This document shows, one piece after another, positions 570-30,733 of a stretch of DNA of 32,382 nucleotides. Below the pieces are notes generated by a model. That model was not told where the DNA came from. It made no database searches and was given only the letters and a program-made list of their open reading frames with translations. How positions within the stretch are numbered: position 1 is the first letter of the stretch; every line of letters starts with the position of its first letter. Source of the stretch: Azonexus sp. (GTDB taxonomy: Bacteria > Pseudomonadota > Gammaproteobacteria > Burkholderiales > Rhodocyclaceae); contig JAVBXO010000209.1 in assembly GCA_030824535.1 (NCBI GenBank), forward strand, positions 1 to 32,382, in the 5' to 3' direction. The position numbers and the translations under genes were made by a program.

Positions 570-590
570 TTTTGCTTTGTCGGAATCAAT

Positions 591-610
591 ATATTAGCCT
601 GTGCTAATAT
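591..610. promoter_or_regulatory. Perfect inverted repeat ATATTAGC-ctgt-GCTAATAT, candidate operator
   Basis: 8-bp perfect arms, 4-nt spacer, between the TetR gene and the methyltransferase start at 630. Confidence 0.6.
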
Positions 611-629
611 TAAGCCTGCGGAGACCCCA

Positions 630-1283: not shown

Positions 1284-1606
1284 TGCAGCAGATTCACGTA
1301 CAGCAACTGGCCGAATGGCTTGCCGACTCAGCTCGGCCCCAACCCTTCCTCCTCGATGTACGTGAATCCTGGGAATGCGAGCTTTGTCAGATTGAGGGGT
1401 CGCAGCACATCCCCATGCACCTGGTGCCGATGCGCTGCGACGAACTGGACCCGCAACGGGAAATCGTGGTGATTTGCCACCATGGCGGCCGCAGCATGCA
1501 AGTCGCCATGTTTCTCGAACGCAAGGGTTATGACTCGGTCTTCAACCTGATGGGCGGTGTCGAGGCCTGGGCTTGCGAAATCGAGCCGGGCATGCGCCGC
1601 TATTGA
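1283..1606 (+). CDS. Rhodanese-like domain protein
   Basis: LLDVRESWECELCQIEGSQHIPM and active-site loop CHHGGRSM; ATG at 1283 overlaps the previous stop (TGATG), so the supplied ORF start at 1187 is too long. Confidence 0.9.
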   Translation: MQQIHVQQLAEWLADSARPQPFLLDVRESWECELCQIEGSQHIPMHLVPMRCDELDPQREIVVICHHGGRSMQVAMFLERKGYDSVFNLMGGVEAWACEIEPGMRRY

Positions 1607-1614
1607 GAACGCGC

Positions 1615-7019: not shown

Positions 7020-8843
7020 ATGTGTGGCATCGTCGCGGCAGCAGCTCAGTACAATATTGTCCCGGTCCTCATCGAAGGACTGATGCGTCTTGAATACCGG
7101 GGCTACGACTCGGCCGGTCTGGCGATCATCGGCGATGGCCAGATCGAACGCCTCCGTTCGGTCGGCCGCGTCGCCGAACTGGCCGCCGCGGCAGCGACGA
7201 CCACGGCGATCACCGGCATTGCCCACACCCGCTGGGCAACGCACGGCGTACCGTCGGAACGCAATGCCCACCCGCATGTTTCCGGGGCGATTGCCGTCGT
7301 GCATAACGGCATCATCGAGAATTACGAAAGCCTGCGCCGCGAACTGAGCGCCCAGGGCTATGTCTTCACCTCGGATACCGATACCGAGAGCATCGCCCAC
7401 CTTATTGAAGCCACGCTGCAGACCGAACCCGACCTGTTCAATGCTGTCCAGCGGGCCTGTCGCCGCCTGGTGGGGGCGTTCGCCATCGCCGTCATCGACC
7501 GCAGCCAGCCGGGGCGCATCATCGTCGCCCGCGAAGGCTCGCCGCTGCTGCTTGGCCTGTCGGAAAACGGCAATTACGCCGCCTCCGATGCCTCGGCCCT
7601 GCTGCAAGTCACGCGCAACATGGTCTATCTGGAAAATGGCGATATAGCCGAGTTGACCGCAGCAGCGGTCCGTATCGAACGCCTCGACGGCACCCCGGTC
7701 GAGCGTCCGGTGCATGTCTCGCAACTCTCCGCGGCTGCTGTCGAACTGGGCAATTATCAGCACTACATGCAAAAGGAAATCTTCGAGCAGCCGGATGCCC
7801 TGGCCAACACGCTGGAAATCGTCGGTGGCAGCAAGAGCATCCAGCCCGGCATTTTCGGCGCCGAAGCCGCACATCTGCTCGCCGATATCGACCACATCCT
7901 GATCCTCGCCTGCGGCACCAGCGCCCACTCCGGCCTGACCGCCCGCTACTGGCTCGAAGCCCTGGCCGGCATACCCTGCACCGTTGAAGTCGCCAGCGAA
8001 TACCGTTACCGCATCTCGGTGCCGAACCCGCGCCAACTGGTCGTCGCCATTTCGCAATCCGGCGAAACTGCCGACACGCTGGCGGCATTGCGCCACGCCA
8101 AATCGCTGGGCCAGATGAAGACCCTGGCCATCTGCAATGTTCCGGAATCGGCCATCGTCCGTGAATCGGCCCTGCGTTTCATCACCCGCGCCGGCCCGGA
8201 AATCGGCGTTGCCTCAACCAAGGCCTTCACCACCCAGCTCGCCGCACTCTTCCTGCTGACGCTGGTTGTCGCCAAGATCCGCAATCGCCTGAGTGCCGAG
8301 CAGGAAAGCAACTACATCGACCAGTTGCGCCACCTGCCGGTCGCGGTCAACAAGGTGCTGGCGCTGGAAGATGACATTCGCCAATGGGCTCAACGCTTCG
8401 CCGACAAACACCATGCCCTCTTCCTCGGCCGTGGCCGACATTATCCGATTGCCATGGAAGGGGCGCTGAAGCTCAAGGAAATCTCCTACATCCACGCCGA
8501 AGCCTACCCGGCCGGCGAGCTCAAGCATGGCCCGCTGGCGCTGGTCGATGCCAACATGCCGGTAATCTCGGTCGCGCCGCGCGATGACCTGCTGGAAAAG
8601 CTCAAGTCCAACCTGCAGGAAGTCCGCGCCCGAGGTGGCGAGCTGTATGTCTTCGCCGACGGCGACTCGGAAATCCCGGCCTCGGAAGGCGTGCACATCC
8701 TGCGCCTGCCCGAGCACTACGGCGAACTCTCGCCCATCCTGCACGTCGTGCCCCTGCAACTACTGTCCTACCACGTTGCCCTGGTCAAAGGCACCGACGT
8801 CGACAAACCACGCAATTTGGCAAAATCGGTCACCGTCGAATGA
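7020..8843 (+). CDS. glmS: Glutamine-fructose-6-phosphate aminotransferase (isomerizing)
   Basis: Starts [10 protein letters not shown] (catalytic Cys2), SIS domains, C-terminus [11 protein letters not shown]. Classical Tn7 target gene. Confidence 0.97.
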
Positions 8844-9440: not shown

Positions 9441-12400
9441 TCAAGGCCTCATTCGGCCTTGGACGATGGCTAAGGCCATGCTATTGATATAGGAGAGTTC
9501 CGGAGCGTCTTCTCCCCTATACCGCTTCACGAATGTGCCAGCCTCTGTAAGCAACTTGAGCGCGCCGACCACATCTCCTTTCATGTGCAGAATTTCGGCC
9601 AGGTTGTAGAGCGCTTTTGGAAGATGGCCCTCTGCAAACCCTTCTATTGTCCTCAGCAGATTTACTGCTTTGGTCAGATGGCTCTTAGCCTCATCAAACT
9701 GATATCTTTCGAGTGCATTTGCCCCCCAGTTCGCGAGGGCAATCCCTCTGTCAAAGTCGCTTGCATCAGGGTTCGCCATAACCGCAGTGAAGGCTCTTTC
9801 GAAAAGAGTGCGGGCCTCTTGTTCGTCTTCGCCTGCCTCCATGATGGCATTCGCCAAATTGATAAGTGCAGTTATGACTTCCTTGTGATCGTCGTCTAGG
9901 TCACGCTCAACAATCTCAACGTTCTTGCGCAGGAGGGACACCGCTTCTGTCGGTGTTCCCTGGGCAATCAGTCCATGCGCTAGCGCGGTGCGGACCGGTA
10001 CGCAGAGATGTGATTCTGGACCATCGGACGCTTCGTACAGGCTGAGCGACTCTCGAAGAATCTGTAACCAGTCATCGGCAGCGTTAGCATCTCGCAGCAC
10101 TGTTCCTGCGTCCGCGAGTATCTGCGACTTCGACTGCTCGCGAACACCTTCGATGCGGTTGGCGCTTCGAACCGCATTTCGGGCCATAGCGATGGCGCTT
10201 TCACGATTGCCTTGAGCCAACGCAATCCCTGCCTTCTGCATGAGAATGTTTGCATCGGTGATCGGGTCGATCCAAGCGCCCGACGCCTCAGAATCCGGAA
10301 ACGCGTTCGATAAAACCTTGGATGCACGCTTCAGGTCGTTGATTTTGAGCGCGAGGTGAGTCTCTACCACTGCCAGGAAGTTTCGCAGCTCAAGATCGAA
10401 CTGGCGCTTGCAAGCTTCGCCCTGACTGGTCACAAGCCAATCGATAAATTCGAGCCCGCGCTCAGGTTGAAACTCCCCCAACGATCCGGCAAGCTTTGAG
10501 GCCATGCGCAATCCTTCAAAACTGAGTTCGAACCAGTCGGTGCGGGTCGAAACCAGGCTTGCGAGGATCGCCTCACCTTCAGGAACACGAGCGGTACGAA
10601 TCAGGGAAGCACCTTGATGCAACCTCAACGTCGCTTCGACGATCGTCTTCGGCGTGGCATCGGGCTCAAATGCCTCGTCAAGTGCAAACTCGACTGTGGA
10701 TAGGCAGTGTTCGTAGTCTCCAATGCCATACATCAGTTCAGCCGCGCGCGTTATCCCCGCGACGAAGTGGCCGAACGAGCCGGCGCCGCACTCAATGTCG
10801 GCCTGATTCGCGTTCGCATGCTCCAAATAAGCTTTGATCCTTAGTTCCAAGCCAAGCCATGCCGGGGCATGCATGTCGATCTCAGCGAGCGCTTGGTACC
10901 AGTCCGCGTTATGACCGGACAGGTCCATGGCGTAGTTTTGTAGCACGACCAAGTAGGAGATCAGGTACTCTTCAGCCCGAGTGTAGGACGTCTGCGCAAC
11001 TTCGTTGATCGCCTTCAGCAGATCTTCAAGCAATAGGTGGCAGGCACGGAAGTAGGAAGCCTTTCGCTGCGCGTCCCCCATGCACCATGAGCGCATAGAA
11101 CGCACCAGCTGGGAATGCACTCGGTAGCAGTCGCCGTCCACGTGCGATATGCAGTACCGTCGCTCCCCCACTACGCGCTGAAAGTGATGTGAACCGACTC
11201 CCGGTAGCAGGCCGACACGTAGAGCGGCCGCGAATTGCTTCTCCGAGAACTCACCGAAGATCGAGAACACTTCCAATAAGTCGCGCTCGGGGGCCGTTAG
11301 ACCACGGAGGAATCGATCGTACATGTCGGAGGCGCTGCGGCCGAGAAGATCGATCGTAAAGTTGTCGTGGTGTCGCGCAACTTGCTCGACAGCAACCGTC
11401 AATGCCAAAGCGTGAACCGTCGCAGACTCATCACTTTCCCGACATCCTGCCAAGATGTCTCGCCTATGCTGGCGAAGCAGCTTTGCGATCGCTTGGCCTT
11501 CTGGAGCCTCACACTGGTCGTACCAAACTTCAACCCGGGACACGAAGGTCTCAGCGGCGGCTTGCTGCAAGCCAAGCAAGTCCCTCTGTTCAATGAGTTC
11601 CGGCCAACCGCTGGACGATCCAGCAGCGTCGTACTTCGCCCAAGCGATTGGCGTTCGGGAGAAGACTACGCATCGGACGGCGCGGCCCACGGGGCTTAGG
11701 AGCAGATTTGCTAGGAGCTGTTGGATGGCCCACTCGGCGTTATGCTCCTTCGATTCGGACTGGAGCCGGTCAAAGCCGTCAATGAAGAGCGTAAGCTGGC
11801 TATGCCGCTCTTGAAGTTGGTGGATGATGTCCGCCGCTAGCGCCTTCGGAGCCAGTGGGTCCAACGCCGCCGGAGCAATCGTTGCCAAATCGATGTCCGC
11901 AAAGCGTTCGGCAAACCGATTGCGCTGGCGAGACGCCTTCAAGTACGTCGCGCCTTTCAGGAGAAGCTTGGCGGTCCCAAACCCCTCGGCCGCCTCGCCA
12001 AAGACCTCTAGCCAGTCGGCCTTGAAGAGCGCATCCTTCTCTTCAAGGGCCTCGCTGGTGTCCTTTCCCTGATCGAGGAGATCCTTGAACAGTGTGGACT
12101 GGGAGATCGCCGACTGCTCATTCAGCCTCGCAGCCCAAGTCGTGTACATCACAAGGAACAGCGGACATCTGAATCCCGCAGCCCGCAAGGCCGGATAGAG
12201 TGCTTTGCCAAAGAGCTCGAACAGCGGATACGCGGAGTAATACCGAGGAGAGTCGAAGTCCAGCGAACAAATGCCGGTCTTTCTTCGCACCTCCGGCGTC
12301 ATGCGTGCATGTGCGTTGGAGCAAAGGGCTGTCTTGCCGATGCCAGATACTCCGCAAAAGGCCAGCACTGGTGGCGTGGTTGGCCCTTCCACTGCTGAAT

Positions 12401-12500
12401 CGATGTGCCTCAGAATCAGGTCAAGCTCGTCCGAGCGCGCGACGAATAGTTTGTCCCACTCTGGAAGTAGGACCGAAGGGAGAAGCTGGCTGTCTGGCAT
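9441..12500 (-). CDS. STAND/AAA-type NTPase with C-terminal TPR-like repeats
   Basis: Walker A CGVSGIGKTALC, Walker B LTLFIDGFDRL; long C-terminal helical repeats (e.g. SLYEASDGPESHLCVPVRTALAHGLIAQGTPTEAVSLLRKNVEIVERDLDDDHKEVITALINLANAIMEAGEDEQEARTLFERA). Start taken as MPDSQLLPS (12500); the ORF extends to 12554. Confidence 0.85.
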   Translation of the reverse strand: MPDSQLLPSVLLPEWDKLFVARSDELDLILRHIDSAVEGPTTPPVLAFCGVSGIGKTALCSNAHARMTPEVRRKTGICSLDFDSPRYYSAYPLFELFGKALYPALRAAGFRCPLFLVMYTTWAARLNEQSAISQSTLFKDLLDQGKDTSEALEEKDALFKADWLEVFGEAAEGFGTAKLLLKGATYLKASRQRNRFAERFADIDLATIAPAALDPLAPKALAADIIHQLQERHSQLTLFIDGFDRLQSESKEHNAEWAIQQLLANLLLSPVGRAVRCVVFSRTPIAWAKYDAAGSSSGWPELIEQRDLLGLQQAAAETFVSRVEVWYDQCEAPEGQAIAKLLRQHRRDILAGCRESDESATVHALALTVAVEQVARHHDNFTIDLLGRSASDMYDRFLRGLTAPERDLLEVFSIFGEFSEKQFAAALRVGLLPGVGSHHFQRVVGERRYCISHVDGDCYRVHSQLVRSMRSWCMGDAQRKASYFRACHLLLEDLLKAINEVAQTSYTRAEEYLISYLVVLQNYAMDLSGHNADWYQALAEIDMHAPAWLGLELRIKAYLEHANANQADIECGAGSFGHFVAGITRAAELMYGIGDYEHCLSTVEFALDEAFEPDATPKTIVEATLRLHQGASLIRTARVPEGEAILASLVSTRTDWFELSFEGLRMASKLAGSLGEFQPERGLEFIDWLVTSQGEACKRQFDLELRNFLAVVETHLALKINDLKRASKVLSNAFPDSEASGAWIDPITDANILMQKAGIALAQGNRESAIAMARNAVRSANRIEGVREQSKSQILADAGTVLRDANAADDWLQILRESLSLYEASDGPESHLCVPVRTALAHGLIAQGTPTEAVSLLRKNVEIVERDLDDDHKEVITALINLANAIMEAGEDEQEARTLFERAFTAVMANPDASDFDRGIALANWGANALERYQFDEAKSHLTKAVNLLRTIEGFAEGHLPKALYNLAEILHMKGDVVGALKLLTEAGTFVKRYRGEDAPELSYINSMALAIVQGRMRP

Positions 12501-12861
12501 GTCTGCGTAGTATTGATTTGTCGTTGGTTTGCAGAAAGTGAAAGCGTGCCACAACTTAACGTCACGGTCGATGCACCAAGCACAATTCTCGTTCGAGGAG
12601 CCGAACCTTTACTGCTTAATGGCTGCTTTGGGGTTGGCAGCAGCCAAGCGCTTTAGAAGGGGTGACGGTCTTCTTAGGCCGATCACCAGCCTGATGCCAA
12701 TTACAACAGGCGGCACGTCGGCCTTTGCTGACGTTCGCCGTCGCTGAAGGTAAAGACTGCTGACAAAAACAAAGCAGCCCTTCAATGTAAATACATAAGC
12801 CGGTGGCGATTTCCCACTTCCCATATGTGTCGGCCGCTGAAGATGCCATCGGACAGTTGTA

Positions 12862-15069
12862 TTAGATAACCAGGACTCCCTTCGAGAGGGGGAGAGTAAT
12901 GACGAAGGCGACGCCTCCCTCACGGTTTTGAGCCACAATATTGCCGCCCATTCCGCCAATCTGGATTTTGGCGGCATAAAGCCCCAACCCCATGTTCTCG
13001 GATGATGACCTGTCCGTGACCCCGAGTGAAAAGATAGCGACAGTGTCCTCGATGTGCTTTCCGTAATTGAGCACTTCGATTACCGCCATTTCGCCCTCGG
13101 CGCAAACGCTGATTTCGATGGTCGTCCCGTTAGCATAGCGCAACGCGTTATTCACAACGTGATCGAGGTGCTGATCGAGGGTGATTGGGTCATACACTGC
13201 AACGATTCCACTCGTCGGCCCGCTAGCCGTGACCGAATGTCTTTCTTCTCGTAGACGTTCAGTGAATTCAGCTACGTATTCCGCAATGTCCTGGTGGGAA
13301 ACGACAATTTCGCCGTTCTTCAACCCATCTTCCAGGCGGTTGGCTTCATAGAGCGCTTCTACGTTGCGCCGCATGCCTTCCAGGGCCCTACGATGCCGCT
13401 CAGACAGATCCTTGCTGGCCAACAACGTCCCGAGTGGCGATTTGATCCCGTGTCCGATCGCATGCAGATTGTGCTGCCGGATCTTCAGCAGTTCCAATTC
13501 CTTGGCGAACGCCTGTTGCCGCAGTAGCGTGTCACTGTCGACGCGACGCAGATGTCTGTTCAGGCGTTTTTGGTCCCGCTGAAACAGCACATGCATGACG
13601 CGTCCCAAGGTGCCGATCTGGTCCTTCTCGTGCGCGAACTGTTCCAGTCCGCCCAGTCGATGCGCCTTGGCAATCGAATGGGCTGTCCGGGTCAGCCGAT
13701 CAAGCTTGGACAACTTGACGATGGCAATCACGATCAGACATAGGATGGTGATCAGCAGGGCCACGATCCACATGAAGGCTCTTGCCGCGATATCCGGAAT
13801 CACGATGCGTTCTGCGGTCAAGGTTGCAGTCATGCGTGGCAAACCGTCGATGTCCTGCAGCTGGCTGACGTGGACCGGGGGCACGCCCCTGACTACAAGA
13901 CGGGCGATCCAGTTGCTGAGCGCTTGCCACTTCGTCGAGGGCGCTGAATCTTGATGTATCCCCAGCGCCGTCGAGTTCCATATGTCCGGGTCGGACGCCG
14001 AGCGATTCTCGGCCCTGACGATGAGCGCCGCGCGCGAAATAACGGAAGACATGTAGGCCTGTTCCAGCGACATGACTCCCTTTCCTATTTGGCCGGGTGT
14101 GAAGCCATAAGCTGACGATGGCTTGCCGACGGCCGGAGCAACTACGATCTCTGTCCCGATACGAAGGGCTTTGATGCCGCTCGATGGCCATGCCTCGCCA
14201 TCATTGAAGCCGGGGAGGATTCTCGAATCGATGCGGCCGAGGATGGTGACGACCGAGGATTCTCCGTCTTGGGCACGCTCATAAGCTTGAGCTTGCACAG
14301 CACGGTTTGGCTTTCCTCCATCACCGGTCAAGAACCCCGCCACCTCATGGAAGCCGTTCAGTTTCTTTCCCGGTGCGCGGCGACGGGTAATTGGCGTTGG
14401 GGGGGCCTCGAAGGCTAGGGTGATCGTCACCGTCCTCTGTCCATCAAACTGCAGGATGACGCGATCACTCTCAGCAAGCGGCTTCCCGGGGGAGTGGCGG
14501 GTAATCGGCGGCGATGGATAACGCAGGGCAAAGTAGACGAACCGGCCCGCAGGATCCAGCGGAAGCGCCGAAAAGCAAGCCTGAACGGTGTTGTTGGCTC
14601 CGGGACTCTGCTGAACACTGCCACGATTGGTTTCGATGGCGAATTCCGTTGAACAGCTGCGCGGCGGGGAGAACCGCAGTTCATCAGCCTGAAAGGAACG
14701 CTGGTTATCGCGCGTCAGGAAGTAGGAAAAAAACGGACGGCGGATGGTCATCACCTGCACTGAGCGGGCTGACCGGGTGTTTTCGGCAGGGTTTTCCAGC
14801 AGAGAGGAGCCGTCCGGCTCTCGCGTGCTCAGGAGGAATTCCGCCAGTTGACTGCGGAGTACCGACTCCTGGTGCATCTCATCCTTTGTCTTTGCCGCTC
14901 GAACGAAGTCGGCAATAGCCCATACCGTCAGGATCAGGAGGGCAATCCCCCCCAGGGCCATGGTCAGCGTAAAATTCCGAGCACTCCACCATTTCCGTAA
15001 GCGCTTTACGCGTGGATGCTCGCTAAACCTTCCAGCGATAGCCTTGGCGTGCGACAGCTTGAATTTCAT
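12862..15069 (-). CDS. Membrane sensor histidine kinase
   Basis: Two predicted TM segments flanking a large periplasmic region, HAMP-like linker, H-box HGIKSPLGTLL, N-box VVNNALRYA, G2 GLGLYAAK. ATG at 15069 or 15090. Confidence 0.88.
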   Translation of the reverse strand: MKFKLSHAKAIAGRFSEHPRVKRLRKWWSARNFTLTMALGGIALLILTVWAIADFVRAAKTKDEMHQESVLRSQLAEFLLSTREPDGSSLLENPAENTRSARSVQVMTIRRPFFSYFLTRDNQRSFQADELRFSPPRSCSTEFAIETNRGSVQQSPGANNTVQACFSALPLDPAGRFVYFALRYPSPPITRHSPGKPLAESDRVILQFDGQRTVTITLAFEAPPTPITRRRAPGKKLNGFHEVAGFLTGDGGKPNRAVQAQAYERAQDGESSVVTILGRIDSRILPGFNDGEAWPSSGIKALRIGTEIVVAPAVGKPSSAYGFTPGQIGKGVMSLEQAYMSSVISRAALIVRAENRSASDPDIWNSTALGIHQDSAPSTKWQALSNWIARLVVRGVPPVHVSQLQDIDGLPRMTATLTAERIVIPDIAARAFMWIVALLITILCLIVIAIVKLSKLDRLTRTAHSIAKAHRLGGLEQFAHEKDQIGTLGRVMHVLFQRDQKRLNRHLRRVDSDTLLRQQAFAKELELLKIRQHNLHAIGHGIKSPLGTLLASKDLSERHRRALEGMRRNVEALYEANRLEDGLKNGEIVVSHQDIAEYVAEFTERLREERHSVTASGPTSGIVAVYDPITLDQHLDHVVNNALRYANGTTIEISVCAEGEMAVIEVLNYGKHIEDTVAIFSLGVTDRSSSENMGLGLYAAKIQIGGMGGNIVAQNREGGVAFVITLPLSKGVLVI

Positions 15070-15715
15070 TCCAGTTCTGGTCGATGTCACAGAAAGCTCT
15101 TCGGATGTTCGAAAAATGGGTGGCCAACGCCGACGAACCTTGGGCTGACTTCAGGATGGCGGTCAAATCACGGTAGGGTACCGCGACACCCGGTTCCCGC
15201 GCGAGACGGTCTACCAGACTGCGTTGTGTGAGCGTCAAATTTACCCGCTTACCTTTCCAGAGCAGTTGCATCCTATCGTTGGGATCAACCTCAAGCCCTT
15301 CTGGCCACTCCATCGGAATCGCATCCCTATCCCGCTCCTTGGTCCACGTCAGTGCGTTCTCGACCTTGGTGATCAGGTCGAGCGGATTCACCGGCTTGCT
15401 AACGAAATCGTAACGGTTGAAATAGACAGCGACACTCTTCAGGGTGTCGTCAGCGGTCCCCGAGACGAATAGCGTAATGCAGCCCATTTCCTGAAGATCG
15501 CGCTGCAGGCCTAGCCCAGCGAATCGACCTCTTGCCGTAGGCGCCAGATTGATGTCGAGTAGTGCGATGTCATAGCGCTTTGTGAAAATCAGTGCACGCG
15601 CAGTTTCCTCGTCGCCCGCAGTGTCGATCTCGAGCCCTTGTATTTCCGCAAGGATGTCCTTCAGCTGCTGCTGAATGTCAGGCTCGTCATCGACGATCAA
15701 AACCTGGTTCTTCAT
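15023..15715 (-). CDS. OmpR-family response regulator
   Basis: Receiver domain (VLIVDDEPDIQQQL; IALLDINLAP; FVSKPVNPLDLI) and C-terminal winged-helix (LTLTQRSLVDRLAREPG...RRAFCDID...RQGYRWKV). Confidence 0.9.
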   Translation of the reverse strand: MKNQVLIVDDEPDIQQQLKDILAEIQGLEIDTAGDEETARALIFTKRYDIALLDINLAPTARGRFAGLGLQRDLQEMGCITLFVSGTADDTLKSVAVYFNRYDFVSKPVNPLDLITKVENALTWTKERDRDAIPMEWPEGLEVDPNDRMQLLWKGKRVNLTLTQRSLVDRLAREPGVAVPYRDLTAILKSAQGSSALATHFSNIRRAFCDIDQNWNEIQAVARQGYRWKV

Positions 15716-16176: not shown

Positions 16177-16235
16177 AGAAGAAAAATTTCTTTGCAGTTA
16201 AAGAAGAATGCCTGAAAGACCTAGGGAGATTGGCA

Positions 16236-17159
16236 ATGAATGACATACCGGGCGACCAAAACCGTGACGATCGGCTCGACCTTTTGCGTGCACAACGTAC
16301 TTACTACGGTCGCGCTAAGCACTTGCAGACAGCGTTTCTCATCCTGGCGCTTGTCTTGCCTTGGGTTGGTGTATTTTGGAGTGTGGAGTACCCCGAAATT
16401 CGCCCCAAGGTGGCATTGGCCAGTATCGTGCTGCTGCTCCTTGAAATCGGCCTTGCAACAGGGCTTCAGCGCGATTGGGTCAAGACTGCAGCACGGATTC
16501 AAGAGCAGTTCGATACCGAAATATTTCAGCTTCCGTGGAACCAGTTAGTTGTTGGTTCGAAGGTGGCTCCAGAAATTATTCGCTCCGTGACGCGTAAACC
16601 CATCACGGCTAAGAAACGCAAAGACCTTGAGGATTGGTATGAGCACTGTGTCGGCTCTGTCCCTCTTCCTTTTGGTCGCCTTGTCTGCCAACGCACCAAT
16701 GTTGCCTACGACATGGAGGTCCGGAAAACTTTCGCTTGGGGTTTACTTATTACTGCAATCGGGATGGTCGTGTTCCTGATCTACCACCATGGCTTTCAGG
16801 AAGGCATTTCCTTTGCCGACTTGCTACTCACCGTCCTAGTCCCCTATATGCCGTTCGCTGCGTTCGTTCTTCGCGAATACCGTAGGCAGTACGATACCGT
16901 GGAGAGCCTTACCACGCTGAAGTCTGAAGTCGACAAGCTTTGGGCAAAGGCAGTAAAGATACCTGACGCCGCCGAACTGAGACAAGATTCTCGGAATCTT
17001 CAGGACGCAATCTATCGCAACCGTACGTCCAACCCGTTGGTGTACGACTGGGTCTATTGGTTGATGCGGAAACTCAACGAGGACTCTGCTCGACATGCGG
17101 TAGAGACCCTTGTCGCAGAAGTCAAGCGCAGCCTCACTCCGGCCAAGGAGGTTCAATGA
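16236..17159 (+). CDS. S-4TM-like putative pore-forming CBASS effector
   Basis: N-terminus MNDIPGDQNRDDRLDLLRAQRTYYGRAKHLQ resembles S-4TM family proteins; four hydrophobic segments (about AFLILALVLPWVGVFW, VALASIVLLLLEIGLATGL, FAWGLLITAIGMVVFLIY, LLLTVLVPYMPFAAFVL). AGGGAG Shine-Dalgarno before ATG 16236. Confidence 0.8.
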   Translation: MNDIPGDQNRDDRLDLLRAQRTYYGRAKHLQTAFLILALVLPWVGVFWSVEYPEIRPKVALASIVLLLLEIGLATGLQRDWVKTAARIQEQFDTEIFQLPWNQLVVGSKVAPEIIRSVTRKPITAKKRKDLEDWYEHCVGSVPLPFGRLVCQRTNVAYDMEVRKTFAWGLLITAIGMVVFLIYHHGFQEGISFADLLLTVLVPYMPFAAFVLREYRRQYDTVESLTTLKSEVDKLWAKAVKIPDAAELRQDSRNLQDAIYRNRTSNPLVYDWVYWLMRKLNEDSARHAVETLVAEVKRSLTPAKEVQ

Positions 17160-18624: not shown

Positions 18625-19881
18625 ATGCTTCGTGAAAAATTATTTCATCCCTCCAGAGGTAGCCTTGCTTCCCAGGCATCAGCCCGGTTTACCTATCTAG
18701 CGGAGGTCGTTGCTAAGGCGTTTGAACCGACGCAGACGCAGTTGGAGGATTTGGAGCGTGCCTACAATGCTACTGGCGAATACCTAGCTGCTTGTCCAGA
18801 GTTTGATGGGTTGCTCACCCAGGTTCACGCCCAAGGCTCTCGTCAGATGGGAACCATTATTCGCCCGATGAACTCAAGCCGCGAAGGGTTCGACATTGAC
18901 CTAGTTGCGAAGTTGTCGACGAATGCAATTGCACTCTATAGCGGTAGCCAAGGTGCATCTCTCCTGCTTAGCCATCTTAAAACTGCCCTCACGCGATACG
19001 CAAAGAGCCATGAACTGAAAATCGAACCTTGGGATCGCTGCGTGACCCTTGTGTACGCAGGGGGAATGCGTGCCGACTTCGTTCCCATCATTGAGGATCC
19101 CCGATTCTCGCTCTCTTACGGCGAGCATCACGGCTTGATTCCTGACAGAAAGCTCCAAAGCTATATGTCGACCAATCCCAAGGGCTACTGCTTAGGATTC
19201 GACAAGGTGGCCAAAATTCAGGCCAATTTCACAAGTCAGTTTGCGTTGGACTCCATTGCCACCGAAGCAATGAAGGCGGAACTGGTACCTCTCCCGGACG
19301 CGGCGGAAGTATTGGGGCGGCTGTTGTGCCGCTTCGTGCAATTAGCCAAGGTTCATCGCAACTTCTCATTCGCTGATGCAAATGAGGCATTTGTACCAAC
19401 GTCAGTCTTCCTTACGTCGCTCATTGCTCTCGCTTACGAACGACTGGCGCCACACCCTCACGATGGGCCACTTGAGTTGTTCGTGGATATCATTGATGTG
19501 CTGCCCAATATGTTTGAGCGCCATAGCTTTGGAAATGGCCGTCAACATTGGATTCTGAGAAATCCCTTCGCCCTCAATGATAATCTCGCCGACTCCATGA
19601 ATACGCCTGAGCGGCAAGAGGCATTTAACCAGTGGCATGAAAAGCTGAAGAGCGATCTAAAACAACTGGTCTATGCAATTGACGATATGTCTAACTCCGA
19701 CGGTGTGCTTGATGTCGTCAAGAAGTCGTTCGGGCCGAGGGCGTCCATGGCAATGGTTGAGCACAACGCTAAAACTCGGGAGGCTCGCCGTGCAAACGGT
19801 AGAGCCAACTATTTCGTAGGCGGAGCAGCAGCTTCAATTAGCTCTGTGTCACGCTCGCACACCTTCTTTGGCGACCACTGA
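18625..19881 (+). CDS. Second DncV/cGAS-like nucleotidyltransferase
   Basis: GSRQMGTIIRP...GFDIDLVAKL plus MRADFVPII gives an apparently intact GS + DxD + D active-site pattern. Confidence 0.8.
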   Translation: MLREKLFHPSRGSLASQASARFTYLAEVVAKAFEPTQTQLEDLERAYNATGEYLAACPEFDGLLTQVHAQGSRQMGTIIRPMNSSREGFDIDLVAKLSTNAIALYSGSQGASLLLSHLKTALTRYAKSHELKIEPWDRCVTLVYAGGMRADFVPIIEDPRFSLSYGEHHGLIPDRKLQSYMSTNPKGYCLGFDKVAKIQANFTSQFALDSIATEAMKAELVPLPDAAEVLGRLLCRFVQLAKVHRNFSFADANEAFVPTSVFLTSLIALAYERLAPHPHDGPLELFVDIIDVLPNMFERHSFGNGRQHWILRNPFALNDNLADSMNTPERQEAFNQWHEKLKSDLKQLVYAIDDMSNSDGVLDVVKKSFGPRASMAMVEHNAKTREARRANGRANYFVGGAAASISSVSRSHTFFGDH

Positions 19882-20345
19882 TGGCGATACCGTGTCGCCG
19901 CCTTTCATTGGCTCAGCGTGGCTCGGAGCTACAGGCGTTGCGGTGGCCAAACTCCAAGATGGAGTATTGGCAAGGCCGGGAAATGCGTTTTTCCTTTAGT
20001 ATGGCACCGACGCCGATGTCTAGAAGCTACCGGTGCTTGTTAAAGGTGCCAAGGTCTGGTTTCCCTGAAATGATCGTCCTCGAACCGGATTTGAAGCTGC
20101 TTGCCGGTGGCCGGCCGATTCCGCACGTGTACCCGTATAACAACAAAGGCACAAAGCTCTGCCTCTGGCTCCCAGGTTCGGGCGAGTGGAATTCAAACAT
20201 GCGATTCGAGGAGACGTACCTCTCGTGGACTGCGGAGTGGCTCGATTACTTTGAAGAGTGGCTCGAAACGGACAAGTGGGCAGGAGGCGGTGCTCATCCC
20301 GAGCCACATTCGAGCAAAAAGAATCTTGGAAAGAGGTCGCTTTAA
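19881..20345 (+). CDS. E2-like (ubiquitin-conjugating-fold) CBASS protein
   Basis: PHVYPYNNKGTKLCLWLPGSGEWNSNMRFEETYLSWTAEWLDYFEEWLETDKWAGGGAHP fits the bacterial CBASS E2 signature with candidate catalytic Cys (TGC at 20160-20162); TGATG overlap with the upstream stop. Confidence 0.75.
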   Translation: MAIPCRRLSLAQRGSELQALRWPNSKMEYWQGREMRFSFSMAPTPMSRSYRCLLKVPRSGFPEMIVLEPDLKLLAGGRPIPHVYPYNNKGTKLCLWLPGSGEWNSNMRFEETYLSWTAEWLDYFEEWLETDKWAGGGAHPEPHSSKKNLGKRSL

Positions 20346-20735
20346 GTGTTTATCGAGCTGCGAAGCTTGACCATCCTTTTTGTAGTGCGACGAATCGAAA
20401 ACCATGAATGTCGATATCTGCGTCCCTGAGCGGTGCAATCATGGTGCTTCGGCGGTAAGAACCGGTCAAAAAGGAATCGAGACAGTGAATCAGTCTCGAA
20501 AGCTTCGCGCATGTGCTTTTACCGGGTTGAGACGGTCGTCGCCTGTAAGTCTGTGATTTCCAGATTTGACGTCAATTTCTGAAAGCTCTGATAGATGGTT
20601 GTCGGCATGAATGCCCCCAATATTGGATGTCGATAGCCTCATATTATTCTTGTGGAATTATACTTACAGATGCAGGCAAACCTATAACTTCGACATATGT
20701 GTCATGGAATTTTCCTGAGGACAGGCTGGCGGTTT

Positions 20736-21512
20736 ATGGCTACCCAACCCCAACGCAGCGACCCAATTAGTGAAAAATACTTTAAGCCTCTTGAGCGGGC
20801 TGACGCGGCTGGAGACTGGCTTTTCGTCGGCGCCGCAGTTGTATCGATCATCACAGTATTGATCGAAAAAGGCGATTTACCCCGCGCCTACAATCTGATT
20901 CAGGGCACTTTCGTTGTACTCGTCCTGAGTCTCTTCGTGGCCGGACAGATCAGTCGCCTTTATTTTTCCCCCCGCGCCGAAGACAAACGCCGAGAAGAGT
21001 TCCTATCCAACGCGCTCAGTGTCAATCTGACCCATGAGCGTACCATTGGCTATTACAACAACAGTGAGATTGACCCAATCCGGAAAGTGGGTCTCAATAT
21101 CCTGGAAAACACGCATTTCACGAAGGCAATTGCCCTTGAGATGGTGAAAAGAGAGCGGCTGGTGAGTGGCACTTACCTTGCCATCTGGCTTGTTCTCCTG
21201 CTCAACAGGGATACCGACCTTGGCTTAATTTCAGCGGCCGCGCAGGCTGTATTCGGCGAACAGATTATTTCCCGCTGGCTACGCTTGGAATGGCTACGCA
21301 TCCGGTCGGAAAAAATCTTCCGGGAGTTGCATAGAGCTTTTCTGTCAAATCCGGCACCGCATGTTTTGGGTGCCCAAATCTTGGAAGCGTTTTCGACCTA
21401 CGAGGCAACGAAGTCGAGCGCTAGCATCGTGCTATCGACCAGCAGCTTCGACCGTCTCAACCCTTCGCTGACCCAAGAATGGGAGGACATCAAGGCATCG
21501 CTCACTACGTAG
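20736..21512 (+). CDS. Uncharacterised membrane protein
   Basis: ATG 20736 (MATQPQRSDPISEKYF...); hydrophobic stretches WLFVGAAVVSIITVLI, GTFVVLVLSLFVAGQI, GTYLAIWLVLLL. Confidence 0.7.
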   Translation: MATQPQRSDPISEKYFKPLERADAAGDWLFVGAAVVSIITVLIEKGDLPRAYNLIQGTFVVLVLSLFVAGQISRLYFSPRAEDKRREEFLSNALSVNLTHERTIGYYNNSEIDPIRKVGLNILENTHFTKAIALEMVKRERLVSGTYLAIWLVLLLNRDTDLGLISAAAQAVFGEQIISRWLRLEWLRIRSEKIFRELHRAFLSNPAPHVLGAQILEAFSTYEATKSSASIVLSTSSFDRLNPSLTQEWEDIKASLTT

Positions 21513-24296: not shown

Positions 24297-26435
24297 ATGC
24301 GTACCGGTACTCAGTTATGTGCCCCTGAGGGCTTTGATGCCCTTTGCAAGGGTGTACGGTATCACCTGCTTCGCAGCGACCCGGCCCGGCAGCGCGTTTT
24401 GCTGGTGGAATTCCAGCGGAAACACCAACGCAGTGGTGAAGGCCAAAGGAGTAGTGCCGACACCGGCACCAAAGGGGGCGCATCCGGGGGGCATTCGGGA
24501 GTCTCTGATCAGGGCGCGGGTGGAACATATGCCAGCTACCGGCCTGTTCTGCATTTCTTGTCTCGCCATCAATTCGAGCAGGCCCTGGAGCGTGGGCTGA
24601 TTTTCGCGTGCGAACCACAGGACGAGCTTCCCCCTTGGCTCGCCGGCGTGACCATTGTGGAACTCCAAGCGTACGCAGAACTTCGCGTGGGCCAGAAGCG
24701 CAGCCACGCTGCGCGTATCGACCAGATTTTGGTGCATCTATGGCCGCTGGTGCAGAACCTGGACCAGATTCTGGGTGCCGAGTCTCCCGACACACTCATC
24801 AACGCACACGCGAGAGCGTGCAAGCCTCCACAGCATGAGACGCGCTTTAGGACTGCGTTCTATGCGTACGTGTGCTTCGGTTGCAATCGGTGGGCTTTGC
24901 ACTATCCGGTGCATCATATTGGTCACTGGGACCGGATGGGGCGCGAGCGGAAGTTTGGCCGGCCATCAAGGCTCAATGGTGCCCATCACGGCCACGGTTC
25001 CAACGACCAGGAGATGATTAATCGGATTCTGGAGGGGTACCGAAAGTATGCCGGTCCGGGGCAACACCTGAGCGCAATCTATCGCCGCACCCTGCGCACC
25101 GTGTTCGGCTGTCTGGTGCAAACCGACCCCCAGGGCAGAAAGTACTTCGTACACCCCGCCGGCAAGGCATTTCCGACCTTTGGTCAGTTCGCCTACCGGG
25201 TCGGTCAGGCCTTTCCACTGGAGATGCGCCAAGTCTACAAGTATGGTCATACCCGGGTCAGGACCCGGCTGCAGCATTCGCTCGGTCGCTTTGCTGAGAG
25301 TGTGGGCAACCTAATGGAACGGACCGAGCAGGATGCCTATTGCTGTGATCGGGTAGCCAAAGGTTACTTGCCAGACAGCCACCTGCCGGCACTCTGGGTT
25401 GTACGCACGCGCTGCATTGCATCTGGGATGCTCGTCGGGATTGGATTCTCCATCGGTGCAGAGGCGGCGTCAGCGTATCGCCTGGCCAAGTTCTGCGAAG
25501 CCATCGACAAGGTGAAGTTCTGTAGCCTGTTCGGCTTGCAGATTAAGGAAGGCGACTGGCCGAGTGTCGGCGTGTCACCCCATGTGATCCATGACCGAGG
25601 TCCTGGCGCCACAGCCAGAGCCGAATCGGCCAATCCCGTTCTAAGGCCCGTCATCAAGGAATCTGCTCCCAGTTACTCTGGCCAATCCAAAGCATCAATC
25701 GAAACGACCCACCCAAAAGCGATCAAGCTCGAAGGAAAACCCCACTATCTCGAGACACGCCTTTCAATTACCCAATTGGCGGCCCAGGAAATCATCAGGA
25801 CGATCGCCGACAATCACAGCATCGATGTGGCGGACCGGCTCAACAACGATGCTGTCGAGGCTGGTGTGTTTCCGACCCCTGTTGCGTTGTGGAACTACCT
25901 TGATCGTCGAGGACGCAACCACGCCATCTCAATGCGCTTCGAAGAGGCAGTCCGGGCATACTTGACGCCAATTGAGCTGACCGTTCGGGACGATGCGGTG
26001 TACTTCAAGGAAATGCGCTTTGACTCCACGGCCCTACAGCGGTCGGAGGCACTGCAGAAGGCACACACCTGCGGAACCTACCGGCTAGGCGGCTACATGT
26101 TGGATGTCTGCGTGCGCCATCTGTGGGTGGAGGCGGGCACGGATCTGATCGAGGTGGATGCGATGCTGGCCATTCGGGATGGGGAGGAACAACTCTACAT
26201 CTCGGTGGTGGAACTTGAACAGCTTGATCGCTTGCGACGCGACGGGAAACTGGAGCTCAAATACCACCAGCTTGCTGCGCGATCCGAGTACGAGGCCACA
26301 TTCGAGCAGCATATGGGACAACAGTTCGACCAGTGTATCGTCAAGGGTGGAAGAAACAAGAGATCGAAGGCCGCTTCAGTAGAAGAACGCCAGCAAATCA
26401 TGCAATACCTGCGAGCAAAAGGAGGAAAGCGATGA
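24297..26435 (+). CDS. tnsB: TnsB-like DDE transposase
   Basis: RNase-H fold signature: ERTEQDAYCCDRVAKG (first D), GIGFSIGAEAASAYRLA, VIHDRGPG (second D), SKASIETTHPK (E). Confidence 0.85.
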   Translation: MRTGTQLCAPEGFDALCKGVRYHLLRSDPARQRVLLVEFQRKHQRSGEGQRSSADTGTKGGASGGHSGVSDQGAGGTYASYRPVLHFLSRHQFEQALERGLIFACEPQDELPPWLAGVTIVELQAYAELRVGQKRSHAARIDQILVHLWPLVQNLDQILGAESPDTLINAHARACKPPQHETRFRTAFYAYVCFGCNRWALHYPVHHIGHWDRMGRERKFGRPSRLNGAHHGHGSNDQEMINRILEGYRKYAGPGQHLSAIYRRTLRTVFGCLVQTDPQGRKYFVHPAGKAFPTFGQFAYRVGQAFPLEMRQVYKYGHTRVRTRLQHSLGRFAESVGNLMERTEQDAYCCDRVAKGYLPDSHLPALWVVRTRCIASGMLVGIGFSIGAEAASAYRLAKFCEAIDKVKFCSLFGLQIKEGDWPSVGVSPHVIHDRGPGATARAESANPVLRPVIKESAPSYSGQSKASIETTHPKAIKLEGKPHYLETRLSITQLAAQEIIRTIADNHSIDVADRLNNDAVEAGVFPTPVALWNYLDRRGRNHAISMRFEEAVRAYLTPIELTVRDDAVYFKEMRFDSTALQRSEALQKAHTCGTYRLGGYMLDVCVRHLWVEAGTDLIEVDAMLAIRDGEEQLYISVVELEQLDRLRRDGKLELKYHQLAARSEYEATFEQHMGQQFDQCIVKGGRNKRSKAASVEERQQIMQYLRAKGGKR

Positions 26436-27901
26436 GCGCTGCTTCTACTGCAAACGGGTGGCTGCATTGGTTTGATCGGCTGGATACCGACGATGCAATC
26501 CGGACGGCGGCATACCGCGCGGTGACGCCAGTCAAAGATCTACAGGCCTTGCCCGTTGAGAGGGCCTGCAGCGCTTTGGGCGCCGCATGGAGCGAGGTCT
26601 TCATCCCCGGACCTCGCCATATCGAAATCTTGCGCATGCTGGTAGACCAAGCGAAGGAATACTCCTTGTCGATGTATCCAACGCTGAGGGATTACAACCG
26701 GCGGCTCAGCGGCGAGATCGAGACTGTTCGGAAGCCATACCCGATTCGCTGCCTGACGGGGCTGGCCGGTGTCAGCAAGTCGTCCCTCATGCAGGCCCTC
26801 GTCCGTATCTGCCAAGTTACCCCGGATAGCCAATTCGTTACGGACTCGCAGCGGCTGACGATCCATCCGGTTCGACACATTTCCGTGCAGGCGCATCTCT
26901 CCGTGCGAGCGCTGCTCAAGAGCCTCTCGAATCCTGTGGCGGTCAGCGGCCGCACGATGGTCGATGTGAGTGTCCTGCTCACACACGTACGGGACTGGTT
27001 TCAGGCGACAGGTACTGCGCTGCTCATCGTCGATGAGATGCAGTTCTACACGCAAAGCGGCACGGCCAGCACCAAGACGGCGCAGCTCATCATGACCCTG
27101 GCAAGTCCTGGCATTCCGCTTGTCTATGCGGCCAACTACTCGCTGGTCAAGAAGCTGCTCGAACGTCCCCATGAGGAAAAAGATCGTCTTCTGGCGCATC
27201 CGATCGTGCTTGACCCACCGGATGCCGACTCTGCGGCCTGGTGCGAGGTGCTTGGCGAGTACCTTGCTGTCGCGCCCGAGCACTTTCATCTGGAGGTGTC
27301 TGCTCACGCCCACGAGCTGCACCGGCTTACCGCCGGACTGTTCAGAATCTTGCGGCAACTGCTTCTGGAGGCCTATCGAGTGACCGTTGGGCGAGGTGCA
27401 CGAGCTGTGACCATGGATGACGTCAGGCAGGCCTTTCGCGGTGCTGCATTCAGTAGCCACCGCAAGGATGTGGAGGACTTGGCATCCCTGGCCGTGTCTG
27501 GCTTGATCGCCCAGCAGCGTGCCGACTTGGCGTGCCCATTTGCACCGGCCAAGGGTCTCCAGCGACAGATATCTCATGGTCGAGCAACCGGTAATGTTGA
27601 AACTGGCGCCACTCCCCCGGTGGCAATGTTGGAAAGCACCCTGAGTATCGACGCCCAGAAGACCCTCCGGGTATTACGTCAGGCAGCCGACCATCCTCTA
27701 CGGCCGAACGATGCTGCCAAGGTGACGCCCTTGCCCCGTCGTTCCACCATATCCGCTCAGACCTTACGCGATGGAGCAGAGCTGTTGCGGAGTACCTTGG
27801 CCAAGCCCAAACCGTCCTCGGTCAAGAGCTTGTCACCCTCCAGCGAACACGCACAGGGACAGGGAGAGGGAGAGGGAGAGGATCGTGTCGAGACAAGCTG
27901 A
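26432..27901 (+). CDS. tnsC: TnsC-like AAA+ ATPase
   Basis: Walker A-like GLAGVSKSSLMQAL, Walker B LLIVDEMQFY; ATGA overlap with tnsB, GGAGG Shine-Dalgarno. Confidence 0.85.
   Translation: MSAASTANGWLHWFDRLDTDDAIRTAAYRAVTPVKDLQALPVERACSALGAAWSEVFIPGPRHIEILRMLVDQAKEYSLSMYPTLRDYNRRLSGEIETVRKPYPIRCLTGLAGVSKSSLMQALVRICQVTPDSQFVTDSQRLTIHPVRHISVQAHLSVRALLKSLSNPVAVSGRTMVDVSVLLTHVRDWFQATGTALLIVDEMQFYTQSGTASTKTAQLIMTLASPGIPLVYAANYSLVKKLLERPHEEKDRLLAHPIVLDPPDADSAAWCEVLGEYLAVAPEHFHLEVSAHAHELHRLTAGLFRILRQLLLEAYRVTVGRGARAVTMDDVRQAFRGAAFSSHRKDVEDLASLAVSGLIAQQRADLACPFAPAKGLQRQISHGRATGNVETGATPPVAMLESTLSIDAQKTLRVLRQAADHPLRPNDAAKVTPLPRRSTISAQTLRDGAELLRSTLAKPKPSSVKSLSPSSEHAQGQGEGEGEDRVETS
27857..27882 (+). repeat. 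Purine hexamer tandem repeat GGGACA(GGGAGA)3GG at the tnsC 3' end / tnsD ribosome-binding region
   Basis: Direct reading: gggacagggagagggagagggagagg immediately before the GTG at 27885. Confidence 0.8.
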
Positions 27902-29663
27902 GATTTTCGAGTCGACGGTTGGCCTGGCGCCATTGCCCGACGAGACGCTGTTCAGTTGGTGCAGCCGCTACCACCGTTTGGCTGCCAATGGACTTGATCG
28001 CGCGACTTGTCTCCAACTCTTCGGACATGCGCGCATCGGCTCGGCACATGACTTTCCGGGCCGGATCGATACGCTGGTGGCTCGAAGCAAAGGTGCCTTG
28101 GGAAGCGCGGAGCAAGTTATCCGAGATCGGACGCTGTTGCCTTTCTACTGGCCTTTCAAGCCTTCTGATCTGGCAAGGCAATCCGTGGCAGCCATGAGGG
28201 GCAATGGCATTGCCCATCTGAAATACCAGCTCGGTCTGCTGACCAGTGGGCTCGGAGCCGCGCATCCCTTGAAGACCTGCCCTGAATGTATGCAGGCCGA
28301 TCTGGAGGGGCATGGTTGGACGTACTGGCGCCGGGCCCATCAGCTACCTGGTGTGTGGTTGTGCCCCAGCCACGGCATTCCTCTGCGGATATCCCACATG
28401 AAGCTGGATCAGGTGGCGCGATTTGCCTGGACGCTTCCTGTAGCTGCGTGCTGCCAAGAAGTAGTGTGTCTGGACAGCGCCGCTGACAAATCTACCCAAG
28501 GCGATTGGTTACGCCGGCTGGCAGCCCAAGGAGTCGCGCTTGTCGGCATGAGCCCGGGACGCTTTGCAGATCCTGTTCGGATTGCCCATGCCTTCCGATT
28601 TCACATGGAGGGTATCGGAATGCTCCACGCCAGCGGCCGTGTCCGCTGGCGCGAGGTTGAGCCTTGGTTGCTCCAGCTGGCAACGAACCTGACTTGTCTT
28701 CCTGAGGCGCGTCAGGATGCCGACTTGGGCTTGCTTCGAGGGCAACTCGCTCGTCTTCTGTCTGCACGCTCCCTGACACATCCTCTGCGATATCTGACTT
28801 GGATCACCGCTTGGTTTGACGGGATCGACGATTTCGAACAAGCCTACGAAAGCTGTGGGATGGCAACAGATCAAGCGCTGGAAATCGCAGCCTCCCCTCG
28901 GACAAGCCGCGATGTAGCGACCCAGCGGCAGGTTCCGAAGGAGATCCTGACCTCCCTTCGGGACTGCAACCTTAGCATGACTGCGGCCGCGCGGCAGTTG
29001 GGGGTCAGCTACGCGACACTCGCCGCGTGGGCATGTCGTGTCGCGATTGAGCCGCCAAGACGGCCAAAGAAACTTGATGCCCCGTCGTGGAGCTTGGCCC
29101 TTGGTATGCTAAGGAATGGCGCCGAGAAGAAGGCGGTTGCGGCAGCGACCAAGATATCGGTACCGACCGTCACCAGGATTCTGCGGACTGTTCCGGGGCT
29201 TCAGAATGAATGGCATAGCGTCCGTCATGAAAGTCGCCGGATGGCGGCCAGGGCCGCCTGGGCGCAGGTGGCAGCGCTAAACCTTCATCTGGGCGTCAAG
29301 AGGCTTCGGCGGCTTGAGCCCGCTGCTTACGCTTGGCTCTACCGCAACGATCACTGTTGGCTCAAGGCATCGCTTGAGCGTGTGGTAACCGTTCCCAGAG
29401 CGAATCACGCCACGGTGCGGATGGAGCGATCGGATGCGCGGATGGCCGATGCGCTGCGCAACGTCGCTCTGTCCTGCAGCAAGGAAGCACCGCGATGGCT
29501 ATATGATGAATTGAAACGAGCACTCCCTGCACTACGTAAGGCCATCCACAGCCCGGAACAGTGGCCTCTGACCGTTGAGGCGCTAACGGATAGCCTACGT
29601 TGTCATAGGCCCGCGCATCCGCTTCTAGATCCAGCAGGTTCAGATGAACAAGCCTCTCGGTGA
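27885..29663 (+). CDS. tnsD: TnsD/TniQ family target-selection protein
   Basis: TniQ N-terminus (VGLAPLPDETLFSWCSRYHRLAANG) and zinc-binding motif CPECMQADLEGHGWTYWRRAHQLPGVWLCPSHGIPL; GTG 27885 overlaps the end of tnsC. Confidence 0.85.
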   Translation: MSRQAEIFESTVGLAPLPDETLFSWCSRYHRLAANGLDRATCLQLFGHARIGSAHDFPGRIDTLVARSKGALGSAEQVIRDRTLLPFYWPFKPSDLARQSVAAMRGNGIAHLKYQLGLLTSGLGAAHPLKTCPECMQADLEGHGWTYWRRAHQLPGVWLCPSHGIPLRISHMKLDQVARFAWTLPVAACCQEVVCLDSAADKSTQGDWLRRLAAQGVALVGMSPGRFADPVRIAHAFRFHMEGIGMLHASGRVRWREVEPWLLQLATNLTCLPEARQDADLGLLRGQLARLLSARSLTHPLRYLTWITAWFDGIDDFEQAYESCGMATDQALEIAASPRTSRDVATQRQVPKEILTSLRDCNLSMTAAARQLGVSYATLAAWACRVAIEPPRRPKKLDAPSWSLALGMLRNGAEKKAVAAATKISVPTVTRILRTVPGLQNEWHSVRHESRRMAARAAWAQVAALNLHLGVKRLRRLEPAAYAWLYRNDHCWLKASLERVVTVPRANHATVRMERSDARMADALRNVALSCSKEAPRWLYDELKRALPALRKAIHSPEQWPLTVEALTDSLRCHRPAHPLLDPAGSDEQASR

Positions 29664-29668
29664 GCACG

Positions 29669-30733
29669 TCAAGCGACCTCAGTTTCGTGTGCTGTGCTAC
29701 ATCTGCTTCGTAGCAGACTCTCAACGTCTTCCATGCCGACACCGAAAGTTTTACAGGCCTGTTGGAGTCCTGCTCCTGCAAGAAAGGCGCCGAGAGCCTG
29801 GCTGGCCGCATCGACTGCATTCCCGTGGGGGGCAATCCGCCGATTTGCCAGGTCCAAGGTAATCAACGCATCTTCTGCATTGTCGAACAGTACGGCAAGG
29901 ATGGCCGTGCAAGCCAATGCTGGGTAAGTGACGTGCCGATCAACGCAGGCACCGTCGACCTTTCTGATGTATGTCAGTGCCTGCTTGGATGCCACCTCCG
30001 GCATATGCCGCTTCAGCCAGCTTTGCGGGAAGTGCTCCAGGATCAGGTCGCTGGTGACAGGACGCTTCCCCATTTCTCCTATACGCAAGTCGAGGGCGTG
30101 GCAGCGTTCGCGAACAGCATCCCCCCAAGCCCGCACGTGAACGGGCTCTGGTCGTTGAAGCCATCCGAGCAAGATGCCCTGCAGACGATGAATCGCAGAC
30201 GACGCCAGCTCGTTCTGAAGGTCGATCTCGGAGACAGCCACATGGCTGAGGGCGGGTGGCTGCTCGGGTACGGATATCTCCGATCCCTCCGCAAGGATGC
30301 CAAGAGGGATATGGTGGGTCGGACACCAGTCGATGCCATTGATCTGGTGTCGCCGCCTCCAGTAGGCGAAACCATGGTCGCCATGGTCAATCTGGACGCA
30401 TATCGGGCACCACCGGCACCCGCTCGCAGAGGTACTGAGGCCGTAGACTTTGGCCAAATGTCGCCGATGATTTGCCTCACGCTCGGAGCCCGCGTGACGG
30501 GATACCGGGTACAGCACGGGAATCATCGAGTGCTTGGCCGTGAAGTCAGCTATGCGTGCGCCGCAAGCCTGGGCGAGCAACCAAAGGACAGGGACATTGT
30601 CATCGCTCGTGAACGCCGCTTTGATCGACTTGGTGGCCCATGTGACGGAGGGCATTGCGTTTAGGCGTGCAAACCGGCCAAGCACGCCCATGGCTAGTTC
30701 GTCGTCGAGAGGAATCGGTAGATTTTGAATCAC
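29669..30733 (-). CDS. Second TniQ family protein
   Basis: MIQNLPIPLDDELAMGVLGRFARLN and CRWCPICVQIDHGDHGFAYWRRRHQINGIDWCPTHHIPLG; convergent with tnsD, 5-bp gap. Confidence 0.85.
   Translation of the reverse strand: MIQNLPIPLDDELAMGVLGRFARLNAMPSVTWATKSIKAAFTSDDNVPVLWLLAQACGARIADFTAKHSMIPVLYPVSRHAGSEREANHRRHLAKVYGLSTSASGCRWCPICVQIDHGDHGFAYWRRRHQINGIDWCPTHHIPLGILAEGSEISVPEQPPALSHVAVSEIDLQNELASSAIHRLQGILLGWLQRPEPVHVRAWGDAVRERCHALDLRIGEMGKRPVTSDLILEHFPQSWLKRHMPEVASKQALTYIRKVDGACVDRHVTYPALACTAILAVLFDNAEDALITLDLANRRIAPHGNAVDAASQALGAFLAGAGLQQACKTFGVGMEDVESLLRSRCSTAHETEVA

Follow-up and report, generated by a model that had tools for sequence, protein, structure and literature searches.

The window analysed here, a 32,382-nucleotide stretch of an Azonexus sp. 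genome, contains two nucleotidyltransferase genes that lie side by side, the first preceded by a gene for an S-4TM effector and the second followed by genes for an E2 ubiquitin-conjugating-like enzyme and a second 4TM protein (Table 1). This arrangement raises the questions of what the second nucleotidyltransferase is, which of the two enzymes the E2 serves, and whether the five genes make up one anti-phage system of the CBASS type or several.

Table 1. Positions within the window of the genes, motifs and relic discussed in the text
Feature	Position	Strand	Basis
S-4TM effector, type I CBASS	16233..17159	+	PF18159 4.4e-84; PDLC00721 1.7e-111
AGS-C CD-NTase, type I CBASS, 481 aa	17156..18601	+	SMODS 1.4e-35; AGS_C 1.1e-17; PDLC00793 9.6e-186
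CdnG-like CBASS cyclase (CD-NTase clade G type), 418 aa	18625..19881	+	Pfam, PADLOC, structure matches, tree
Cyclase GS motif	18835-18840	+	
Cyclase D90	18892-18894	+	
Cyclase D92	18898-18900	+	
Cyclase D151	19075-19077	+	
Cyclase lid N184/Y188	19174-19188	+	
Predicted E2 processing/conjugation tail H-T-F-F-G-D-H, cyclase residues 412-418	19858..19878	+	Conservation, SmCdnG alignment
E2 ubiquitin-conjugating-like enzyme, 154 aa	19881..20345	+	PADLOC, PDB match
E2 catalytic Cys94 (TGC)	20160-20162	+	
Third CBASS cyclase relic, PDLC00823 kind, N-terminal residues ~1-67, truncated, frameshifted	20425..20608	-	tblastn, blastn
Second 4TM CBASS effector, candidate for CdnG-E2	20697..21512 (start maybe 20739)	+	PADLOC PDLC00719 2.1e-99

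Identity and clade of the second cyclase

The gene at 18625..19881 runs from ATG to TGA uninterrupted by stops, and its product matches the Pfam SMODS (2.8e-12) and DncV-like nucleotidyltransferase (4.2e-8) families and is spanned from residue 1 to 417 by the PADLOC cyclase model PDLC00817 (E 1.5e-173). It carries the motifs AQGSRQMGTIIRP (G71, S72), FDIDLVAKL (D90, D92) and MRADFVPII (D151), and so has the GS motif and the three acidic metal ligands on a nucleotidyltransferase core by which a CD-NTase is recognised. These five residues are invariant across the 32 representative relatives that were aligned and, taken together with the family matches, indicate that the motifs are more than chance. 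The first-pass annotation had read the enzyme as one that diverges from the neighbouring CD-NTase while keeping its catalytic acids, and had argued against a recent tandem duplication; both points are borne out by the motifs and their conservation and by a blastp comparison with the AGS-C cyclase, in which 26.9% identity over 119 residues (E ~1e-5) speaks against a recent duplication of that gene. Its remark that an AGS-C-like tail is lacking also stands, insofar as the product has no Pfam AGS_C match (the upstream neighbour scores 1.1e-17), but it missed a conserved tail of the protein's own, SHTFFGDH, which is predicted to serve in E2 conjugation.

By profile, tree and fold, the cyclase belongs to CD-NTase clade G. 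Its best solved relative in a single-sequence search is the Serratia marcescens enzyme SmCdnG (8hsb_A, 8.1e-24), and a profile built from 33 family members recovers SmCdnG (4.1e-112), VcCdnG (3.4e-64) and BdCdnG (9.8e-29), with far weaker matches to other clades. In line with this, the top PDB matches of its AlphaFold model (pLDDT 85.3, pTM 0.86) in Foldseek are 8hsb and 8yjy, the cryo-EM structures of S. marcescens CdnG-E2 (E 2.7e-18, TM 0.71/0.79), followed by 7ljn (Bradyrhizobium CdnG), and ranks 1-6 are all CdnG enzymes; the catalytic residues are in place. The cyclase also groups with SmCdnG, VcCdnG and BdCdnG in the tree (97/80), whereas the AGS-C cyclases form a separate group (100/99), in agreement with the earlier proposal that the two neighbours come from different clades. 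Its branch is long (2.96), leaving its exact position among the CdnG rows open, and since reference enzymes from other lettered clades were absent from the tree, the placement in clade G rests mainly on profile and fold. The sequence is a divergent one, with at most ~30% identity to any full-length sequence compared. Single-sequence searches of genome_contigs and viral_contigs recovered no close relatives, and neither did searches of genomes from its order (348), phylum (399) and family (199); phage records gave a single distant match.

What the enzyme makes can be approached through VcCdnG, whose residues G56/S57, D73/D75/D135, K244 and S261 are all matched by alignment (the last two by K242 and S260 here) and whose lid pair N194/Y198 aligns with N184/Y188, an N/Y lid being predominant in clade G. 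Since VcCdnG produces 3',2'-cGAMP (PMC12804361) and its functional residues are conserved here, a cGAMP-type dinucleotide is, by analogy, the most likely product as a first guess. Caution is advised by residue 319, an aspartate in this cyclase versus a glutamate in all 32 representatives and in VcCdnG; the VcCdnG residue, E308, is described as contacting guanine and is a donor-base specificity residue that is not stated to define the clade. Given the divergence of the sequence and its long branch, product specificity may differ, and the difference in clade makes it plausible that the product is not that of the AGS-C neighbour.

The enzyme thus resembles VcCdnG of the Vibrio cholerae CdnG-Cap5 system (PDB 9WOO; PMC12804361) in its clade, N/Y lid, catalytic triad and K and S contacts, but that system employs a SAVED-HNH effector (Cap5), of which there is none in the window. 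With S. marcescens SmCdnG-E2 it shares the cyclase fold, the catalytic residues, the N/Y lid, an adjoining E2 with an LCL cysteine motif and a cyclase tail of the form N/H-T-F-[FY]-G-x, and it differs in overall sequence (22% identity in the structural alignment), in having D for E at position 319 and possibly in using a 4TM effector. The first-pass annotation had held out the prospect of novelty, to be given up if the enzyme proved to be of a well-described CBASS kind. It is a divergent yet ordinary CdnG-type cyclase, of a kind already known and represented by the structures 8hsb, 8yjy and 9kkb, and the prospect therefore lapses.

The E2 partner and the cyclase tail

The start codon of the E2 gene overlaps the stop codon of the cyclase gene (TGATG), and the E2 product matches both the PADLOC E2 model PDLC00863 (4.2e-48) and chain B of PDB 8hsb (1.1e-24), which is the E2 of the SmCdnG complex; of 81 E2 sequences in the alignment, 80 retain the catalytic Cys94. 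Its pairing was assessed across 80 relative loci (28 groups at 70% identity), collected by scanning genome_contigs with cyclase-family patterns that are blind to the E2. An E2 gene lies directly 3' of the cyclase and on the same strand in every one of these loci, whereas none of the six AGS-C cyclase loci (L017, L018, L022, L128-L130) has one, and we therefore regard the E2 as the CdnG-type cyclase's own partner. Service to the AGS-C cyclase was rejected in view of the same six loci and of the C-terminus of that enzyme (...SEPFYVVIE), which has no CdnG-like tail. In addition, two parts of a single PADLOC profile, PDLC00816, align with the pair, positions 19-362 with the cyclase and 485-537 with the E2, suggesting that natural cyclase-E2 fusions exist. 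No E1 gene was found among the neighbouring ORFs scanned with Pfam and PADLOC. We are confident that the CdnG-type cyclase encoded at 18625..19881 and the E2 encoded at 19881-20345 are partners in a CBASS module of type II-short (E2-only).

The tail of the cyclase offers a view of how this pair may work. F415 aligns with Y405 of SmCdnG, the C-terminus of which reads ...N-T-F-Y405-G-E, and an aromatic-Gly tail, mostly N-T-F-F-G-x, ends 78 of the 80 relative cyclases. G416 is kept in all 32 representatives, and across the family the aromatic and the glycine are fixed and then followed by a variable stretch of ~1-4 residues, which is what a processed tail would look like. This end of the protein is disordered in the AlphaFold model, with pLDDT <50 at residues 397-412 and 415-418. 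For SmCdnG-E2 (PDB 8hsb, 8yjy, 9kkb), PMC12804361 and PMC12135389 cite Yan et al. 2024 Nat Microbiol, and PMC12135389, citing work from 2024, names Y405 as the residue whose conjugation by the E2 promotes activation. As SmCdnG ends in Y405-G-E, two residues would need to come off before Y405 could be conjugated. The Serratia pair is said to combine C-terminal processing of the cyclase with poly-cGASylation and cGAMP production.

If the window's pair behaves as SmCdnG-E2 does, the E2 would trim the flexible cyclase tail between F415 and G416 (...HTFF/GDH), the new C-terminus would be loaded onto Cys94, and the cyclase would then be conjugated to lysines, perhaps on other copies of the cyclase. 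Such conjugation would boost cyclase activity upon infection, and the active enzyme would produce a cGAMP-like dinucleotide that switches on an effector, leading to cell death or growth arrest. By this analogy, processing of the tail and activation by the E2 are probable, and the family-wide tail, with its invariant glycine, the aromatic before it and the few variable residues after it, supports processing beyond Serratia, across E2-only CBASS. Type II CBASS with an E1-E2 and a JAB protein (Cap2/Cap3) is similar in that the cyclase is conjugated via its C-terminus, as predicted here, but there the conjugated residue is a C-terminal Gly or Ala (PMC10097602, PMC11153139), and the module in the window is without E1 and JAB.

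A separate contig of the same genome (C36, L035) encodes, at 437-3918, a further CD-NTase that is 25% identical over 343 residues, and after it come an E1-E2 gene (PDLC00856, 1.6e-151) and an ORF of 165 residues; the genome thus also contains a type II CBASS.

The effector question

The effector is the weakest step of this explanation. Around 33 representative relatives of the cyclase, 14 neighbours are patatin phospholipases and 9 are SAVED proteins (2 of them of the 2TM type), and in the window neither of these usual CdnG effectors adjoins the cyclase. The sole unpaired candidate is the second 4TM gene, which is intact and lies 351 bp 3' of the E2, with the relic of a third cyclase in between; both gene and relic are absent from the first-pass annotation. 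The relic matches WP_040140761 in tblastn (E 5e-15) and is recovered by blastn with 76.5% identity over 100 bp, and its reading frames are broken. Pairing of such a 4TM protein with a CdnG-type cyclase was seen in 0/80 relatives, and what is unusual about this locus is a CdnG-E2 module whose only unpaired nearby effector is a 4TM protein. A literature search gave no dedicated study of the 4TM CBASS effector class.

We put the chances that the 4TM protein at 20697-21512 is the effector of CdnG-E2 at about even. Somewhat short of even, and touching the effector alone, is a second reading that is compatible with the identity of the CdnG-E2 pair: cyclase and E2 would be complete as sensor and signal maker and would borrow the S-4TM protein or have lost their effector, and the 4TM gene at 20697 would be left over from a decayed third CBASS. 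The relic between E2 and 4TM is of the very cyclase kind that, in L022 (Rhizobium sp. NXC24), has a member of this 4TM family as its neighbour, and the same family stands beside related cyclases in three further loci (L027, L028, L118); the 351-bp gap and the preference of CdnG relatives for patatin or SAVED effectors point the same way. Against a leftover, however, the 4TM gene is intact, on the same strand as the E2 and just 3' of it, and the relic lies on the opposite strand, whereas cyclase and 4TM are co-stranded in all four of those loci. Because the gene is intact, downstream and on the same strand, we place its adoption by CdnG-E2 slightly ahead. A more elaborate scenario, in which a 4TM protein from a decayed CBASS with another kind of cyclase took the place of the phospholipase or SAVED protein usual for CdnG-E2 and the E-to-D change at 319 gave a donor pocket suited to the signal of that effector, seems unlikely.

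Relatives of the second 4TM protein with 38-43% identity are also found on four plasmids from four genera (L023-L026), without a recognised cyclase but with a large AAA gene and a phospholipase-D-like (or 'phosphatidylserine synthase') gene close by, where the 4TM effector is possibly employed by another defence system.

The neighbouring type I module and the genomic setting

Only 23 bp separate the stop codon of the AGS-C cyclase gene from the start of the CdnG-type gene. The two nonetheless travel apart: an AGS-C cyclase or 4TM protein accompanies none of the 80 CdnG-type loci, and the AGS-C cyclase and 4TM pair stands by itself in a congeneric genome (G111, L017) and on the Pseudomonas syringae plasmid pMG2_SR198 (L128). 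The latter is a type I CBASS of the same kind as the window's S-4TM and AGS-C genes, and differs from CdnG-E2 in its cyclase clade (PDLC00793), in having no E2 and in its tail. A 4TM gene adjoins the cyclase in five of the six AGS-C loci, and a phospholipase gene in the sixth (L018). Since each module is seen without the other in other genomes, the window holds two adjacent and independent CBASS modules, a type I module of 4TM and AGS-C cyclase and a type II-short module of CdnG and E2. The ownership of the E2 is thereby settled, and a puzzling five-gene operon resolves into two ordinary modules. The implication of the first-pass annotation that the second nucleotidyltransferase was an extra member of the S-4TM/AGS-C system, sharing its E2, is not borne out, with co-occurrence in 0/80 and 0/6 loci.

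The same counts make it very improbable that the five genes form a single composite CBASS, expressed as one transcript with two cyclases, two signals and an E2 acting on one or both; the close spacing and shared strand of the cyclase genes would suit such a system, as would the multi-cyclase cluster of Rhizobium sp. NXC24, but the ...SEPFYVVIE end of the AGS-C cyclase, with no CdnG-like tail, speaks against it as well. It is scarcely credible that the nucleotidyltransferase is no cyclase and instead modifies protein or RNA, for example by nucleotidylating the E2 or the first cyclase, an idea to which its low identity to all characterised enzymes and the altered D319 lend something, but which is opposed by the retention of all CdnG catalytic, lid and triphosphate-contact residues and by best structural matches that are CdnG enzymes. 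The cluster on the NXC24 plasmid occupies 3540-6636, where the genes for an AGS-C cyclase, a 4TM protein of the second kind and a third cyclase lie consecutively.

On either side of the two CBASS modules lie glmS (7020-8840) and genes whose products carry TnsC-like AAA, TnsD and TniQ domains (26333-30733). CBASS is known as cargo of Tn7-like elements (PMC8649781), and with these genes around them the two modules appear to be carried by such an element, positioned at the glmS site; TnsA and TnsB were not confirmed by Pfam, and the ends of the element were not located. Scans for promoters and terminators gave no signal above the shuffle background. A possible further defence gene, on the reverse strand at 9444-12554, encodes a 1037-residue protein with AAA/NACHT-like and TPR matches, and beside it, on the same strand, are genes for a histidine kinase and a response regulator (12865-15715). 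Finally, a CdnG-like cyclase (25-26% identity) together with an E2 was observed on three IMG/VR viral contigs (L119, L120, L125).
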